Assembly: GCA_031292215.1 (NCBI GenBank)
Contig: JARLHO010000039.1
Coordinates: 1-44,127 of the forward strand
Source of the DNA: Syntrophobacteraceae bacterium
GTDB taxonomy: Bacteria; Desulfobacterota; Syntrophobacteria; Syntrophobacterales; Syntrophobacteraceae
Direction of reading: 5' to 3'
DNA length: 44,127 nt
Below are positions 24,940 to 31,741 of this stretch, one piece after another; position 1 is the first letter of the stretch; each line of letters begins with the position of its first letter. A program made the translations under genes and the position numbers. The notes under the pieces were generated by a model. The model searched no databases. It saw only the letters and a program-made list of their open reading frames with translations, and was not told the origin of the DNA.

Positions 24940-26067
24940 TTAGATGCTTTCGTCAAGCTCGCCGGTTATCTGAAACTTGCGCATGAAGCGCCGGTCAATG
25001 AAGTCTTTCAACAGAAAGGGCAACCTGCCGCCGCATGTCCGGCCGCGTTTAAACAGGATCCCTTTGCTGTCGCCCATGTTCAAAATCAGCATGTAATCCT
25101 CTTTGGGTATGTAGCTTTTCATTTCCCCCCCATCGAGAGCGGCCAGCAGATTGTTATGAAGTATCGGACCTTGCCTTACCGCGTGGACTCCGACCCTGGC
25201 AAGTGTGGCTCCCTCCAGACTGATGCAGTCTCCGCCTCCAAACAATTCCGGATAATCAATGCTTTGGAGGAACCTGTTGACTGGTAAGCTCCCGTCTAGC
25301 GCAACCCGGAGGCCGGAGTCTCTGAATATGACGGAGGGCCTTATCCCCATCGCCAAAAAGACATAGTCATAAGAAAGAGTTTCCTTGTCGGATAAGGTCA
25401 GCCAGGTTTTTTCAACCGAGCGCACCCTCTTGCCTTCAATTACTTCGATGCCTCGCCCACCAAGCGACTTCAGGGCAAGGCGCCTCGCCCCGGGAGGACA
25501 ACCTTCCAGTAACCTCTCGCCGGCAACAAGGACTATTTGCGCTGGTCTTCCGTTATTGTGCAAAAGTCTCCATAGATTCGCGCACACTTCCACACCGCCT
25601 GGTCCACCCCCGGCGACAACGATCCGCAGGGGTCTCCCGTGAGCTTCGTTTAGAATGGAGGAGCGGGCTTTATAAAGATTTAGGACAGGTTTTACCGCAA
25701 TCATTCGGCTGTTAAGAGACCACAGTGGATCGATGGACACATCGCTACCGCAGTTAAAAGAAGCGACATCGTAGGGCAGAATTTGTCCCCCCCTTAACAA
25801 AAGTCTGCGGTTGCCGGCATCGATTGCCGACACGCTGTCTTCGATAAACTCGGCCCCACCCCGCTCGGCCATCTTCCGCACGTTAAAGCGTACCCGGGGA
25901 GGGTCGTAGACACCCGAGAGCAAGCCAGGCCCCATTCCTGAGTAATATGAGTACGAAAAGGGATTAATGAGAGTGACCCTGTGGCCTCTATGCAGGTAGA
26001 CGGCAATTCGGGTGAGTGGTGTCAACTGCGCGTGACCTGCGCCAACCAAGACCAGATGTTTGCCCAT
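24940..26067 (-). CDS. NAD(P)/FAD oxidoreductase of the type fused to SelD
   Basis: 375 residues, two-dinucleotide-domain flavoprotein. M-G-K-H-L-V-L-V-G-A-G-H-A-Q begins the FAD site; Y-S-Y-Y-S-G-M-G-P-G-L-L-S-G matches the family in which this domain is fused N-terminally to selenophosphate synthetase SelD (I recall model TIGR03169). NAD(P) site V-V-A-G-G-G-P-G-G-V-E-V; C-terminal FAD site F-G-G-G-D-C-I. Related proteins include NDH-2 and sulfide:quinone reductases. The ATG at 26067 is preceded by AGAGGA. It is divergent from the radical SAM gene, so they share a control region of about 240 bases. A selenium link is an inference from family and neighbours. Confidence 0.82.
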   Translation of the reverse strand: MGKHLVLVGAGHAQLTPLTRIAVYLHRGHRVTLINPFSYSYYSGMGPGLLSGVYDPPRVRFNVRKMAERGGAEFIEDSVSAIDAGNRRLLLRGGQILPYDVASFNCGSDVSIDPLWSLNSRMIAVKPVLNLYKARSSILNEAHGRPLRIVVAGGGPGGVEVCANLWRLLHNNGRPAQIVLVAGERLLEGCPPGARRLALKSLGGRGIEVIEGKRVRSVEKTWLTLSDKETLSYDYVFLAMGIRPSVIFRDSGLRVALDGSLPVNRFLQSIDYPELFGGGDCISLEGATLARVGVHAVRQGPILHNNLLAALDGGEMKSYIPKEDYMLILNMGDSKGILFKRGRTCGGRLPFLLKDFIDRRFMRKFQITGELDESI

Positions 26068-26306
26068 AATAGTCCTCTGTGACAAGATTTACGGCGCGGC
26101 CCCAAAGCACTCTCAGCATGCAATTTGCCCGGCAGGCCCCCCAAGTGAAATCTAAACGACACAATCGCGAGGCTAAAACCATGGAAATTATAGCTCACAT
26201 ACCAAGAGTGTATAGCAATGGCCAGTATTTTGTAGCATAGTTAAAAGTCGAAGGGTGCGCTTCGAAGCTCTCCTTGAAGGAACTGTCATTACCAGAGAAA
26301 AACGTA

Positions 26307-27461
26307 ATGGCTATTGCATTTCTGCGGGGTAAAATATCGTATCATTCTTCAAAAGTCGGCAAATTCTTTGGCGCTACCGGAAAAAGAATAGATAGCCGGA
26401 TAACGGGCATTGGGGAAGGTATGGCCCAGGCGTTTATGGAAAAGACGATAAGCAGCGAGTTATCAAAAGTTGGCGAGGCAATTGGCGCCGAAGAGCAAAG
26501 CGTGCCCCCCGCATCATTTGCTTCGATGCTGGCCCGCCACGAGCTAAAACTTGTTCGCGGAAACACCTCGGTTTTGCAGATCAACATGGGACTTCTTTGC
26601 AACCAAAGGTGTCGCCACTGCCATTTGGAAGCCGGTCCGGACCGCGTCGAAATGATGGATGAAAAAACGACGGCCGAAATCATCGAGTTTGCCGGCCGCG
26701 GTCGTTTTCAGACAGTCGATATCACGGGCGGCGCCCCTGAGCTGAACAACAACCTCGCCACCCTTATCGAAAACCTCGCAGGTCTTGCCCCAAAAATCAT
26801 GCTTCGTTCCAACTTAACGGCTTTAACCGATGTTGGGCGCAGATATCTGGTGGAACTTTGCAGGGAATATAAAGTGGTCCTGGTTGCCTCTTTCCCATCC
26901 CTTAACCAGGGACAGACGGACTCACAACGCGGCAGCGGAATCTGGGAAAAAAGCATTGCCGCCCTAAAAGAACTCAATGCCGCAGGATACGGTGAACCTG
27001 ATTCAGGCTTGGTACTCGACATTGTCTCCAATCCTTCGGGCGCTTTTCTTCCCTCTTCTCAGGAGGCGACCGAAAAAAGGTTTCGAAGGGACCTCGGGAG
27101 CAGGTGGGGCATAGGGTTTAACCATCTCTACACGTTCGGCAATGTCGCCCTGGGAAGATTTCGGAAATGGCTGATAGATTCGGGGAATTTCGAATCATAC
27201 ATGCGAAGGATTACCGAGAGTTTCAACCCCTGCACGATTGACGGTCTCATGTGTCGAACACTGGTATCCGTCTCCTGGGACGGATACCTCTATGACTGCG
27301 ATTTTAACCTGGCGCAAGCCATCCCGATGGGAGGACGGGCGATGCATGTTTCTGAGGTTGAAGGCCCCCCGAAACCGGGGACACCGATCGCCGTGGGGGA
27401 ACACTGCTATGCATGCACGGCCGGCCCCGGATTCACCTGAGGAGGGGCCATCGAAGGCTGA
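26307..27461 (+). CDS. arsS: ArsS-like radical SAM / Cys-rich protein with probable selenocysteine
   Basis: 384 residues if UGA 27438-27440 is read as Sec. Radical SAM site C-N-Q-R-C-R-H-C (C-x3-C-x2-C); G-G-A-P-E-L follows. The C-terminal Cys-rich domain ends G-E-H-C-Y-A-C-T-A-G-P-G-F-T-[UGA]-G-G-A-I-E-G. Known family members (radical SAM/Cys-rich, ArsS, the rSAM_SeCys type) end C-x-A-G-x-G-S-S-C-G-G, so the UGA sits where they have Cys or Sec. ArsS is linked to arsenosugar synthesis, using S-adenosylmethionine. The N-terminus has an extra stretch of about 75 residues. I place the start at ATG 26307; a TTG at 26274 is possible. The AhpD-like partner follows. Confidence 0.85.
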
Positions 27462-27476
27462 GTTCAGCGCAAAGGT
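27438..27476 (+). promoter_or_regulatory. Candidate bacterial SECIS hairpin after the in-frame UGA
   Basis: GCTG (27457-27460) pairs with CAGC (27465-27468) around an AGTT loop, about 21-24 bases after the UGA, inside the 16-37 base window known for bacterial SECIS. Lower pairing is possible between GCC (27447-27449) and GGT (27474-27476). The loop holds a G-U as in E. coli fdhF. The second stop at 27459-27461 lies within the hairpin. Confidence 0.55.
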
Positions 27477-27545: not shown

Positions 27546-27878
27546 ATGGAAAGTTATTATCAGCCCGAAGATCTAGCAAAGTTTGAGGAAATCGGAAAAG
27601 AAGCCCCGGAGCTCGCGAAAAAATTCTTTGATTACTACGCGGCGGTCTTTGCCGATGGCGAGTTGACGGAAAGAGAAAAATGTCTCATCGCTCTCGCCGT
27701 GGCCCATACCATTCAGTGCCCCTATTGCATCGAAGCCTACACGCGGGCCTGCCTGGAAAAGGGTTCCAACCCCGGCGAAATGACCGAAGCCGTTCATGTC
27801 GCCACAGCAATTCGCGGAGGGGCCTCTCTTGTCCACGGCATCCAGATGCGCAACATCGCTCAGAAGATATCGATGTGA
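27546..27878 (+). CDS. AhpD/CMD-family peroxidase-like protein, arsenosugar/selenium-associated
   Basis: 110 residues of the carboxymuconolactone decarboxylase/AhpD fold. The redox motif is C-P-Y-C-I-E-A-Y (C-x2-C), followed by M-T-E-A-V-H-V-A-T-A-I-R-G-G-A-S-L-V-H-G. This matches the subgroup usually encoded beside the ArsS-like radical SAM protein, named an arsenosugar biosynthesis-associated peroxidase-like protein; some members carry Sec. Here both catalytic positions are Cys. GAGGAGG precedes the ATG. It lies 84 bases after the radical SAM gene on the same strand. Confidence 0.88.
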   Translation: MESYYQPEDLAKFEEIGKEAPELAKKFFDYYAAVFADGELTEREKCLIALAVAHTIQCPYCIEAYTRACLEKGSNPGEMTEAVHVATAIRGGASLVHGIQMRNIAQKISM

Positions 27879-27971
27879 ACCGACACCACTTTGATTTTTC
27901 CCAGATAAAGGCCTTGGCGCCGATCGGCATGTTCAGCAAAGCTTTTGAACTGGAAAACGGGAGCAGCGATC

Positions 27972-29528
27972 ATGGATACTGAGGGGTCTAAAGGCGTTTT
28001 CCCGCAGGATCGATACAATAAGATCCTAATTGCAAACGTTTTCCCGCCCGATTGGAGAAACCCCGCGCCTTCGGGCAGATACAACCTTGTAGTAATCGGA
28101 GCAGGGACGGCCGGCCTTGTCGCTGCAGCAGGCGCCGCAGCCCTTGGGGCCAAGGTTGCCCTGGTCGAAAGGCATCTTATGGGGGGCGACTGCCTCAACT
28201 ACGGGTGCGTTCCCTCCAAGGCGGTTATCCGCTCCTCCCGGCTAGCCGAAGATGTGCGATCGGCGGATGGCTTTGGCGTGCGCATCCCGCAGGGTGTTAC
28301 GGTCGATTTTTCGGCGGTCATGGAACGGATGCGAAGGTTGCGAGCGAAGATCAGTTCGCACGATTCGGCAAATCGTTTCCGGGAACTCGGAGTGGATCTT
28401 TTTTTTGGAGAAGCTCGGTTTACAGGGAAAGATTCACTCGAAGTCGGCGGGAAAAAGCTACGATTTGCGAAGGCGGTGATCGCCACCGGAGCACGGGCTG
28501 CCGCACTTCCGATAGAAGGGCTAAGGGAAGCGGGATACCTTACCAACGAAACGGTCTTCTCGCTAACCGAGCGGCCGGAGCGGCTTGCGGTGATAGGAGG
28601 TGGCCCGCTTGGCTGCGAGCTTGCCCAGGCGTTTCAAAGGCTTGGCTCTAAGGTATCCATCATCCACACCGGTGAGCATCTCCTTGGAAGAGAGGATAGC
28701 GATGCGGCAAGGATAATTCAGGAGACTTTTTTACAAGAAGGCGTGCAACTGCTGCTACATGCCAGGCCGGAGAAGATCTCCGGAACAAGTGAAGGGAAGA
28801 TGGTCTTCTACGAAAATGAGATAGGGAAGGGGAGTATCGTTGTTGACGAGATCCTGCTGGGAGTGGGGCGGGCCCCGAATGTGGAAGGGCTTAATCTCGA
28901 AGCCGCAGGGGTCGCATATGATGTAAAAGCAGGAGTCACGGTAGACGATTTCCTTCAAACCAGCAACCCGCGGGTCTATGCCGCAGGAGACATTTGCCTC
29001 CCGTACAAATTCACGCACATGGCAGACGCCACGGCGCGAATCGTGATTCAAAACGCGCTTTTCATGGGGCGAAAGAAACTGAGCGAACTGACCATTTCCT
29101 GGACAACCTACACGGACCCTGAGATTGCCCACGTGGGGATGTACGAATGGCAAGCCAAAGAGCGGGGCATCGAGGTAGATACTTTCCTGAAATCTTTTAG
29201 CGAGGTCGACCGCGCGGTTATCGACAGTGAAGAGTCCGGGTTTGTCAAAATCCACGTCAAGCGGGGCAGCGATAAAATTTTAGGCGCAACAATCGTAGCG
29301 CGACACGCCGGGGAGATGATCGGTGAAATCGGCCTTGCCCTGGTAAAAGGAGTTGGCCTTGGCGCCCTAGCCAATGTCATCCACCCCTACCCGACCCAGG
29401 CGGAAGCCATAAGGCAGGTTGCGGATATGTACAAGCGCACCCGCCTTACCCCTTTTATCGAGAGCCTTCTCTCCTTCTGGCTAAGGCTTCGGCGCTGGAG
29501 TCCCAAAGGTTCCAGCTATTCCAGCTAA
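27972..29528 (+). CDS. MerA-like FAD pyridine nucleotide-disulfide oxidoreductase
   Basis: 518 residues. FAD motif V-V-I-G-A-G-T-A-G-L-V; active disulfide G-G-D-C-L-N-Y-G-C-V-P-S-K; NAD motif V-I-G-G-G-P-L-G-C-E; C-terminal H-P-Y-P-T-Q-A-E-A base motif. It resembles mercuric reductase in its core, but the MerA N-terminal metal domain and the C-terminal Cys-Cys pair are missing, so mercury reduction is unlikely; the end is instead basic and Ser-rich (K-G-S-S-Y-S-S). Proteins of this kind are often next to or fused with TVP38, as here. The start at 27972 has GGGAG nine bases upstream. Substrate unknown. Confidence 0.85.
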   Translation: MDTEGSKGVFPQDRYNKILIANVFPPDWRNPAPSGRYNLVVIGAGTAGLVAAAGAAALGAKVALVERHLMGGDCLNYGCVPSKAVIRSSRLAEDVRSADGFGVRIPQGVTVDFSAVMERMRRLRAKISSHDSANRFRELGVDLFFGEARFTGKDSLEVGGKKLRFAKAVIATGARAAALPIEGLREAGYLTNETVFSLTERPERLAVIGGGPLGCELAQAFQRLGSKVSIIHTGEHLLGREDSDAARIIQETFLQEGVQLLLHARPEKISGTSEGKMVFYENEIGKGSIVVDEILLGVGRAPNVEGLNLEAAGVAYDVKAGVTVDDFLQTSNPRVYAAGDICLPYKFTHMADATARIVIQNALFMGRKKLSELTISWTTYTDPEIAHVGMYEWQAKERGIEVDTFLKSFSEVDRAVIDSEESGFVKIHVKRGSDKILGATIVARHAGEMIGEIGLALVKGVGLGALANVIHPYPTQAEAIRQVADMYKRTRLTPFIESLLSFWLRLRRWSPKGSSYSS

Positions 29529-29548
29529 ATGTCAAGGGGGAGAGGGAA

Positions 29549-30241
29549 ATGAAAGAAATAGCTCCGGGCGCAAGGCGTCGCACCGCGTGGGTAAAGGCAC
29601 TATTTTTGGCCTGCTTTTTTGTTGCGGCCATTGCTCTTGTGCATTTCACCCGGGTATCCGATTATCTACAAGCCAAGACGCTTTCTCGGCTGCTGCATGA
29701 AGCAGGGCCATGGGCGCCCGTCTTATTTATCCTTATCTATGCCATGGGAGTGTGCATACTGATCCCCGGCACGGTGCTGACCGGCCTTGGGGCCGCGATA
29801 TTTGGCCCCTACCTGGGGTTTGCCTACGTGTGGATAGGGGCGATGGCGGGCGCAGCCGGGGCATTTCTTCTAGGCCGAACGCTTGGAAGAGATTTTGCCA
29901 CCTCTCTTATCGGGGAGAAGCTCAAAAAATATGACGAAGCCATCGAGCGAAACGGTTTTGCGACGGTACTCTACCTTCGGCTTATCTATTTCCCCTTTTC
30001 GGCCATGAATTACGGAATGGGGCTAACGAGGGTGCGCTTCCGCGATTATTTCCTGGGCACGGCCATCGGGATTATAGTAGGCACTTTCGTTTTCACCTTT
30101 TTTATAGGAACCCTTCGAGATGTCTGGGCATCGGGACAATGGGGTCAACTGCTTACCCCAAGAGTTTTTATTTCACTCGGGCTCTTTGTTTTCTCATTTT
30201 TCATTCCCAAAATCATAAGGAAAATGAGTAAGGGCGCCTGA
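29549..30241 (+). CDS. TVP38/TMEM64-family (DedA-like) membrane protein
   Basis: 230 residues, about six membrane segments. The SNARE-associated core has G-A-A-G-A-F-L-L-G-R-T-L-G-R-D-F and L-R-L-I-Y-F-P-F-S-A-M-N-Y, the F-P-x-x-x-x-N-Y/N motif of the family. Members of DedA/TVP38/VTT are implicated in lipid movement across membranes; the bacterial role is unsettled. It follows the MerA-like gene by 20 bases, so they are probably co-translated. Its last 48 bases overlap the end of the convergent glycosyltransferase gene. Confidence 0.88.
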   Translation: MKEIAPGARRRTAWVKALFLACFFVAAIALVHFTRVSDYLQAKTLSRLLHEAGPWAPVLFILIYAMGVCILIPGTVLTGLGAAIFGPYLGFAYVWIGAMAGAAGAFLLGRTLGRDFATSLIGEKLKKYDEAIERNGFATVLYLRLIYFPFSAMNYGMGLTRVRFRDYFLGTAIGIIVGTFVFTFFIGTLRDVWASGQWGQLLTPRVFISLGLFVFSFFIPKIIRKMSKGA

Positions 30242-31582
30242 GACCGTACCAGGTTTTAGCTTCTCTACTTTTGATCCGTAATATCTTCGGTACAGTTCGG
30301 TTTCCTTGCAGCCAAGAGCGGAGAGGAAAAAGATCAGATGATTTTGCAAGGAAGCTTTGAGCACCCCGTTTCGCAGATATCTGCCAGGGGAGGTATATAC
30401 ATACTCAGCCATTATCGAGATATCCCTTGCGCCCCCTCCGATTTTTCGAAGCTTTCGAACGATCTCCACGTCTTCCATGAGATATTTTCGCCCGAAACCG
30501 CCTGCTCTTTCAAAGAGGTCTTTTCGGCAAAAATACCCCTGGTCCCCGTAGGGAAGCTTACAGAGGGAAGTCCTGAGATTGGCCCACCCGGAGATAAGAT
30601 CAAGTGCCCGGTTAGAGGGCCGGAAGCGAAGCTTGAAACAACCCGCAACTTTAGGCTTGTCCCTGCAGGAGCTTCTTATCAGGTAAGCAAATTGGGGTGG
30701 GGGAGTGGTATCGTCATGCAAAAAGAAAAGTATATTTCCCCGAGACAACATGGCCCCGACGTTTTGCTGAATACCCCGCCCTCTAATCGTTTTAATGACC
30801 GTTAGGGCCGGCGACTTGCGGTGCAAGGCGGTTTTATCAAAAGCCCCTCCCTCCACGACAACTATTTCGTCTCCCGGCCAGAGTAAATTTTCGAGGTAGT
30901 GCAAAAGAGGCGACAACCTTTCCGTCTCGCTAAGGGTTGGGATTATTATTGAAATAGAGTCGCTAAAAAGGGGGTTTCGATCCAGCCTCGCCAGGTCGGA
31001 CTTTTGGTCCACGTCGTATCTTCGCGGGGCGAGGTGTACTCGAAACCCTGCGGCTTCGAATTCCCGGGCGGTTCGGGAGAAGACCTCATTTGTACCCCAC
31101 GTGGTGAAATCAAAGGGCGAGTCAATCGCTCGATCGGTACCTACGAGATAAAAACCGCCATCGGCGGCGGGTCCCAGGACAACGACATTTTCTCCCCAAT
31201 TTTTAAATGCTTCCTCTATATCGCCTGCCTCGACATCGGCAAGATCGGTTCCGATGAGAACCGCGCGGCCGGCGCCCTGTGCGAAAGCCGAGCGCAAGGC
31301 GCTCGCCATTCGGTAACCGAGGTGATCGCCTTCCTGCTCTTGAAATTTCCATGGCCCCCGGAATTTGTTCACAAGGCCTTGCAGCGGATCTTTTGGCATA
31401 TAGAAAAGGGTAATATCGATCTGCGGGGATTTGCGCTTCACATCACACGCTATGCCAAGGGTCCTTCGCACCAGCTTTTCATAGATCCGGGCGGCGCCTT
31501 CGACACCCACTTCCTTTGCAAGGCGGCTTTTTACTCTGCCCGGCGCCGGATATTTTAAAAAAATCAAAAGAGCGTTACCCAC
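30194..31582 (-). CDS. Fused rSAM/selenodomain-associated transferases 1 and 2
   Basis: 462 residues, two enzymes in one chain. Residues about 1-200: DUF2064/CofC-like nucleotidyl-sugar transferase (L-K-Y-P-A-P-G-R-V-K-S-R-L-A; L-I-G-T-D-L-A-D-V; G-P-A-A-D-G-G-F-Y-L-V-G). Residues about 205-462: GT2-family glycosyltransferase (I-I-I-P-T-L-S-E; F-L-H-D-D-T with a D-D metal pair; L-P-Y-G-D-Q-G-Y-F; M-E-D-V-E). From family naming (transferase 1 and 2, rSAM/selenodomain-associated; separate genes in many genomes) it belongs with the ArsS-like gene. The GTG at 31582 follows AGGAGG; a TTG 15 codons earlier is not needed. Transcribed toward the radical SAM set. Confidence 0.85.
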   Translation of the reverse strand: MGNALLIFLKYPAPGRVKSRLAKEVGVEGAARIYEKLVRRTLGIACDVKRKSPQIDITLFYMPKDPLQGLVNKFRGPWKFQEQEGDHLGYRMASALRSAFAQGAGRAVLIGTDLADVEAGDIEEAFKNWGENVVVLGPAADGGFYLVGTDRAIDSPFDFTTWGTNEVFSRTAREFEAAGFRVHLAPRRYDVDQKSDLARLDRNPLFSDSISIIIPTLSETERLSPLLHYLENLLWPGDEIVVVEGGAFDKTALHRKSPALTVIKTIRGRGIQQNVGAMLSRGNILFFLHDDTTPPPQFAYLIRSSCRDKPKVAGCFKLRFRPSNRALDLISGWANLRTSLCKLPYGDQGYFCRKDLFERAGGFGRKYLMEDVEIVRKLRKIGGGARDISIMAEYVYTSPGRYLRNGVLKASLQNHLIFFLSALGCKETELYRRYYGSKVEKLKPGTVSGALTHFPYDFGNEK

Positions 31583-31741
31583 GCAGGCCTCCTCTTGGCT
31601 ATTACCCTCTCGCACGTGGCGGAGCAAATACGATGAATTAAACCACTATAGTTCATGCCGGCTAAACGGCTAATGATTAAATTAGATAATAAACAGTGAG
31701 ACCGGGTGATTATGTAAGACCATCCGGCGGGAGGTTTTTAA

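Follow-up and report, generated by a model that had tools for sequence, protein, structure and literature searches.

A selenocysteine-type ArsS radical SAM protein predicted from comparative sequence evidence in a Syntrophobacteraceae genome

According to PMC12159101 (citing Cheng et al. 2021), ArsS belongs to the radical SAM enzymes and carries out the adenosylation of arsenic on the way to oxo-arsenosugars. The corresponding NCBIfam family, TIGR04167, carries the name rSAM_SeCys, arsenosugar biosynthesis radical SAM (seleno)protein ArsS, and is placed among the known selenoprotein families in two reviews, with AAR34688.1 as an example and with a GxxU motif given in one of the two (PMC9312934, PMC13188914). 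The selenocysteine (Sec) form of this family is therefore already known, and the novelty implied in a preliminary description of the present locus does not hold. The window analysed here, a stretch of 44,127 nucleotides from a Syntrophobacteraceae bacterium (contig JARLHO010000039.1), adds another example.

The arsS-type radical SAM selenoprotein gene is located at 26307-27461 on the plus strand and is predicted to encode 384 residues with Sec at position 378. Its frame scores 359.7 bits with the TIGR04167 profile (cut-off 300), in agreement with the initial assignment as an ArsS-like radical SAM protein, and the score rises to 366.1 bits when the UGA is read through. The Pfam domains are PF04055 (radical SAM) and PF12345/DUF3641. 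A search of the organism's own genome with the family profile gave a single full ArsS match, with one TGA inside. The frame from ATG 26307 ends in GEHCYACTAGPGFT, followed by UGA (27438-27440), the residues GGAIEG and a second UGA (27459-27461), exactly as first described; a standard gene call shortens the protein by seven residues, that is, by Sec and the six residues gained on read-through. The start codon is uncertain, because the first 65 residues are of low confidence in the structure model; it is possibly ATG 26307 or the in-frame ATG 26421 (MAQAF...), which has GGGGAAGG just before it. The radical SAM [4Fe-4S] motif CxxxCxxC appears as CNQRCRHC (26598-26621, plus strand; Cys98, Cys102, Cys105) and is invariant in an alignment of 26 sequences, as are Cys316, Cys331 and, within the C-terminal motif CYACTAGPGFTU (27405-27440, plus strand), Cys367, Cys370 and the column of Sec378. 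A search with the C-terminal motif recovered 103 related loci.

The C-terminus, HCYACTAGPGFTUGG, follows the conserved family pattern HCxxCTAGxGxx[C/U]GG, and the UGA at 27438-27440 occupies its last Cys. This placement had been proposed from the letters alone, and in the alignment the UGA does fall on the Cys/Sec column, which is invariant (one related locus, L073, was left out of the alignment; its frame has a further stop). At this exact codon 57 of the 103 related loci have UGA and the other 46 have a Cys codon, which takes the Sec reading beyond chance. The conventional alternative is that UGA 27438 is a genuine stop, the protein ending in ...GPGFT and GGAIEG following by chance; the standard frame does end there, and the hairpin described below is unexceptional when folded as a single sequence. 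Against this, GGAIEG agrees with the conserved [U/C]GGAI.. tail of the relatives, and a protein shortened at this point would lack an otherwise invariant residue. That all 103 relatives have UGA or Cys is to be read with the fact that the motif used to recover them itself demanded C or U at the Sec position, so that the weight lies in the intact continuation and the split between the two codons. For the same reason a profile search of 297 genomes served as an independent check, and this search, which is free of the motif bias, found exactly one TGA in many of the full-length proteins that scored above the family cut-off. With the complete Sec machinery of the genome (below) also speaking against it, we regard termination at UGA 27438 as highly improbable.

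Downstream of the Sec codon lies a putative SECIS apical stem-loop, GCUG-AGUU-CAGC (27457-27468, plus strand), composed of GCTG (27457-27460), the loop AGTT (27461-27464) and CAGC (27465-27468). The hairpin had been reported about 21 bases past the UGA; its loop starts at 20 nt and its stem at 16 nt. The CUG-AGUU-CAG core is present in most Sec forms and absent in Cys forms, and CUGAGUUCAG is the reading at a fixed register in most Sec forms, the Cys forms being different. Under the published model of bacterial SECIS elements (PMC13188914), the loop has 3 to 9 nt with G in its first two positions and lies 16 to 37 nt from the UGA, the stem has at least 4 bp and the minimum free energy is -7.5 kcal/mol or lower. 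The window hairpin agrees with this in its AGUU loop, the position of the G, its 4-bp stem and its 20-nt spacing, and narrowly misses the energy limit, with -7.0 kcal/mol when the apical stem is enforced. The unconstrained fold has -8.2 kcal/mol and prefers a different pairing. By single-sequence folding the hairpin, which is among the shorter ones, has no excess strength over shuffled sequences (z = -0.01), and a Rfam scan of the SECIS region gave no meaningful match.

The conservation of the pairing across the family is more informative. A loose count of stems of at least 5 bp (52 of 58 Sec forms including the window, 16 of 46 Cys forms, 0.479 in shuffles) was tried as a test and set aside, the signal being poorly separated from the shuffles, and pairing at the fixed register was therefore used instead. 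Sec forms have on average 5.00 of 6 pairs, compared with 4.53 (sd 0.08) when the 3′ arms are swapped among them, and the highest of 300 swaps gave 4.76 pairs; the Cys forms have 3.35 compared with 3.28 (sd 0.12). As the sequences are related and thus non-independent, this result counts as support and not as a probability. The hairpin thus speaks for the Sec reading by comparison across the family, the window hairpin by itself not being exceptional.

The second UGA (27459-27461, plus strand) lies inside the same hairpin. One could suppose that both UGAs, which are in frame, encode Sec and that the protein runs past 27461. The terminator of the 58 Sec forms, window included, is UGA in 49, UAG in nine and UAA in none, and it stands exactly six codons past Sec in 53 of the 58, while in Cys forms any of the three stops occurs and its distance varies. 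Since UGA 27459 is itself within the stem-loop, the hairpin cannot serve it, and residues past 27461 are conserved only where the hairpin forces them to be. Together with the use of UAG in nine Sec forms, this leaves the double-Sec reading a negligible probability. Its position inside the hairpin and the terminator pattern across Sec forms make a stop the best reading of UGA 27459, with the SECIS element placing a constraint on the choice of codon.

The genome that contains the window has matches over the cut-off for tRNA-Sec (74 bits), selA (614 bits), selB (362 bits) and selD (384 bits), so the sel genes proposed as a check on the Sec reading are all present. Its own selD (L018; G000 contig C53, 1390-2436, minus strand) is moreover of the Sec type: where SelD usually has Sec it has a UGA in frame (MGSSPVELAKTVRAAGUAAKIG), and this predicted codon is independent support for Sec decoding by this genome. 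These data also bear on whether UGA 27438 is decoded as Cys or another residue, either by near-cognate read-through or by wholesale recoding of UGA, an idea that finds some encouragement in the many relatives with Cys at the homologous position. The full Sec machinery, the Sec-type selD and the tie between hairpin and Sec forms are difficult to reconcile with it, and recoding is further contradicted by the neighbouring peroxidase-like gene, for which UGA 27876-27878 is a normal terminator that coincides with the end of its family profile; we find such decoding scarcely credible. Selenocysteine at UGA 27438 is instead supported jointly by the alignment column, by the sel genes and by the conservation of the hairpin, and we are highly confident that the window gene is predicted correctly as a Sec-containing ArsS, with actual insertion of Sec being what we infer from these comparisons.

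Across the sampled genomes, selB is over the cut-off in 11 of 12 with Sec-ArsS, with a partial match in the twelfth, and in 0 of 13 Bacteroidota genomes with ArsS relatives. It was also found in five of six Cys-type genomes from other groups, which is no contradiction to the Sec reading. Co-occurrence with selA says little in this phylum, as selA is nearly universal there (269 of 297 genomes); by table count it is present in 23 of the 26 Sec-ArsS genomes of the phylum, and the three without it are 62% to 81% complete. We also noticed, at 24940-26085 on the minus strand and divergent from arsS, a stand-alone oxidoreductase related to the domain that is usually the N-terminal fusion partner of SelD (TIGR03169, 260 bits, below the cut-off of 310); a similar oxidoreductase is near ArsS in only two of the 103 other loci.

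The genes downstream of arsS fit its family identity. An AhpD/CMD-type arsenosugar biosynthesis-associated peroxidase-like protein in the Cys form is encoded at 27546-27878 (plus strand; TIGR04169, 190.4 bits, cut-off 120), followed by an FAD-containing MerA/lipoamide-dehydrogenase-like oxidoreductase (27945-29528, plus strand; NF004991, 830.6 bits), a VTT (DedA-like) membrane protein (29549-30241, plus strand; PF09335, 91.7 bits) and, on the minus strand, a fusion of two arsenosugar-biosynthesis glycosyltransferase families (30194-31627; TIGR04282, 166.7 bits, and TIGR04283, 190.5 bits), both halves of which are over the cut-off. TIGR04169, TIGR04282 and TIGR04283 are thus all over their cut-offs within 27546-31627. 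A TIGR04169-type gene adjoins arsS in 52 of the 57 Sec-ArsS loci, upstream of it among the listed loci and downstream in the window. Sec in the window's peroxidase-like protein was considered as well and is ruled out by Cys at both CPYC positions. No NF008823 (ArsM) match over the cut-off was found in the window genome, which is 97% complete (best 100.8 bits against 263), and hence the arsenosugar role and the arsenic substrate are not secured here. An ArsM-like methyltransferase is present at G000 contig C61:50126-50734 (L131); it is below all ArsM cut-offs and closest to ArsM/AhpD selenoprotein fusions, and it may possibly be a partner of ArsS.

In a tree of 104 ArsS sequences the window pairs with locus L021 (support 100; 80% identity in the tree alignment), and the pair sits in a clade of 57 Sec and six Cys forms. 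Five changes on the tree suffice for the Sec label, compared with a mean of 34.3 when shuffled. L042, L067 and L083, three Cys forms that branch inside the Sec clade, are without the SECIS core; reversion from Sec to Cys would give this pattern, but several forks in that part of the tree are weakly supported. In L067 a decayed-looking GACC...GGUC pairing is kept at the place of the SECIS element. A single Sec form, L128 (G164 contig C10; GSTU, UGA at locus positions 2380-2382, hairpin GCAGGC-AGUUG-GCCUGC), falls within the other, Cys-dominated clade and is possibly an independent gain of Sec; selA was not found in its genome, which is 73% complete. Among the sampled genomes of the window genome's family and order no other ArsS is over the cut-off, so horizontal acquisition of the window's ArsS is possible.

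Taken as a mechanism, a ribosome on this mRNA would reach UGA 27438-27440 and incorporate selenocysteine there, delivered as Sec-tRNA(Sec) by SelB docked on the stem-loop at 27457-27468; six codons later it would stop at the UGA that forms part of this SECIS hairpin. The ArsS protein produced would then adenosylate a methylated arsenical; by analogy with described ArsS, adenosylation of this kind by radical SAM chemistry is the most likely activity of the window protein. No solved structure of an ArsS-like sequence was found. The structure model resembles SPASM/Twitch-type radical SAM enzymes, for which reason it is plausible that the conserved cysteines of the C-terminus are ligands of an auxiliary cluster or serve as thiols in the active site. 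Sec378 probably has a thiol/selenol function in or close to the active site or an auxiliary Fe-S site; the model has low confidence around this residue (block means of 59, then 32), and Sec378 therefore cannot be placed in it. The more specific idea that Sec378 takes part in catalysis or binds metal, for instance with its selenolate as a ligand to an auxiliary Fe-S cluster or to the arsenic substrate, appears unlikely to us; if true, it would make ArsS an unusual natural case of an Fe-S or arsenic site with selenolate ligation.

The corrected gene model restores seven lost residues, the key residue among them, and adds a Sec-ArsS to a lineage whose sampled relatives are without arsS. Across the family the Sec forms fall mainly into one clade, in which the nested Cys forms are without SECIS, and the stop of Sec forms is held inside the SECIS element; this natural Sec/Cys series is suited to tests of the role of selenium in a radical SAM enzyme. 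With SkfB, SuiB, BlsE and EpeE, all of the SPASM/Twitch type, the window protein shares the model fold (Foldseek E down to 2.1e-10) and the radical SAM core, but the identity is 14% to 17% and those enzymes are without Sec. Cys-type ArsS, such as those of Bacteroidota (loci L090-L100), belong to the same family and have the same invariant residues, with GSSC and no SECIS where the window has GFTU with SECIS, and the 13 sampled Bacteroidota genomes gave no selB over the cut-off. Compared with TIGR04167 rSAM_SeCys itself, the window protein is over the cut-off, has the same C-terminal motif and carries Sec at the listed GxxU position; nothing fundamental separates them, the window and L021 forming a divergent pair with a shortened SECIS stem.
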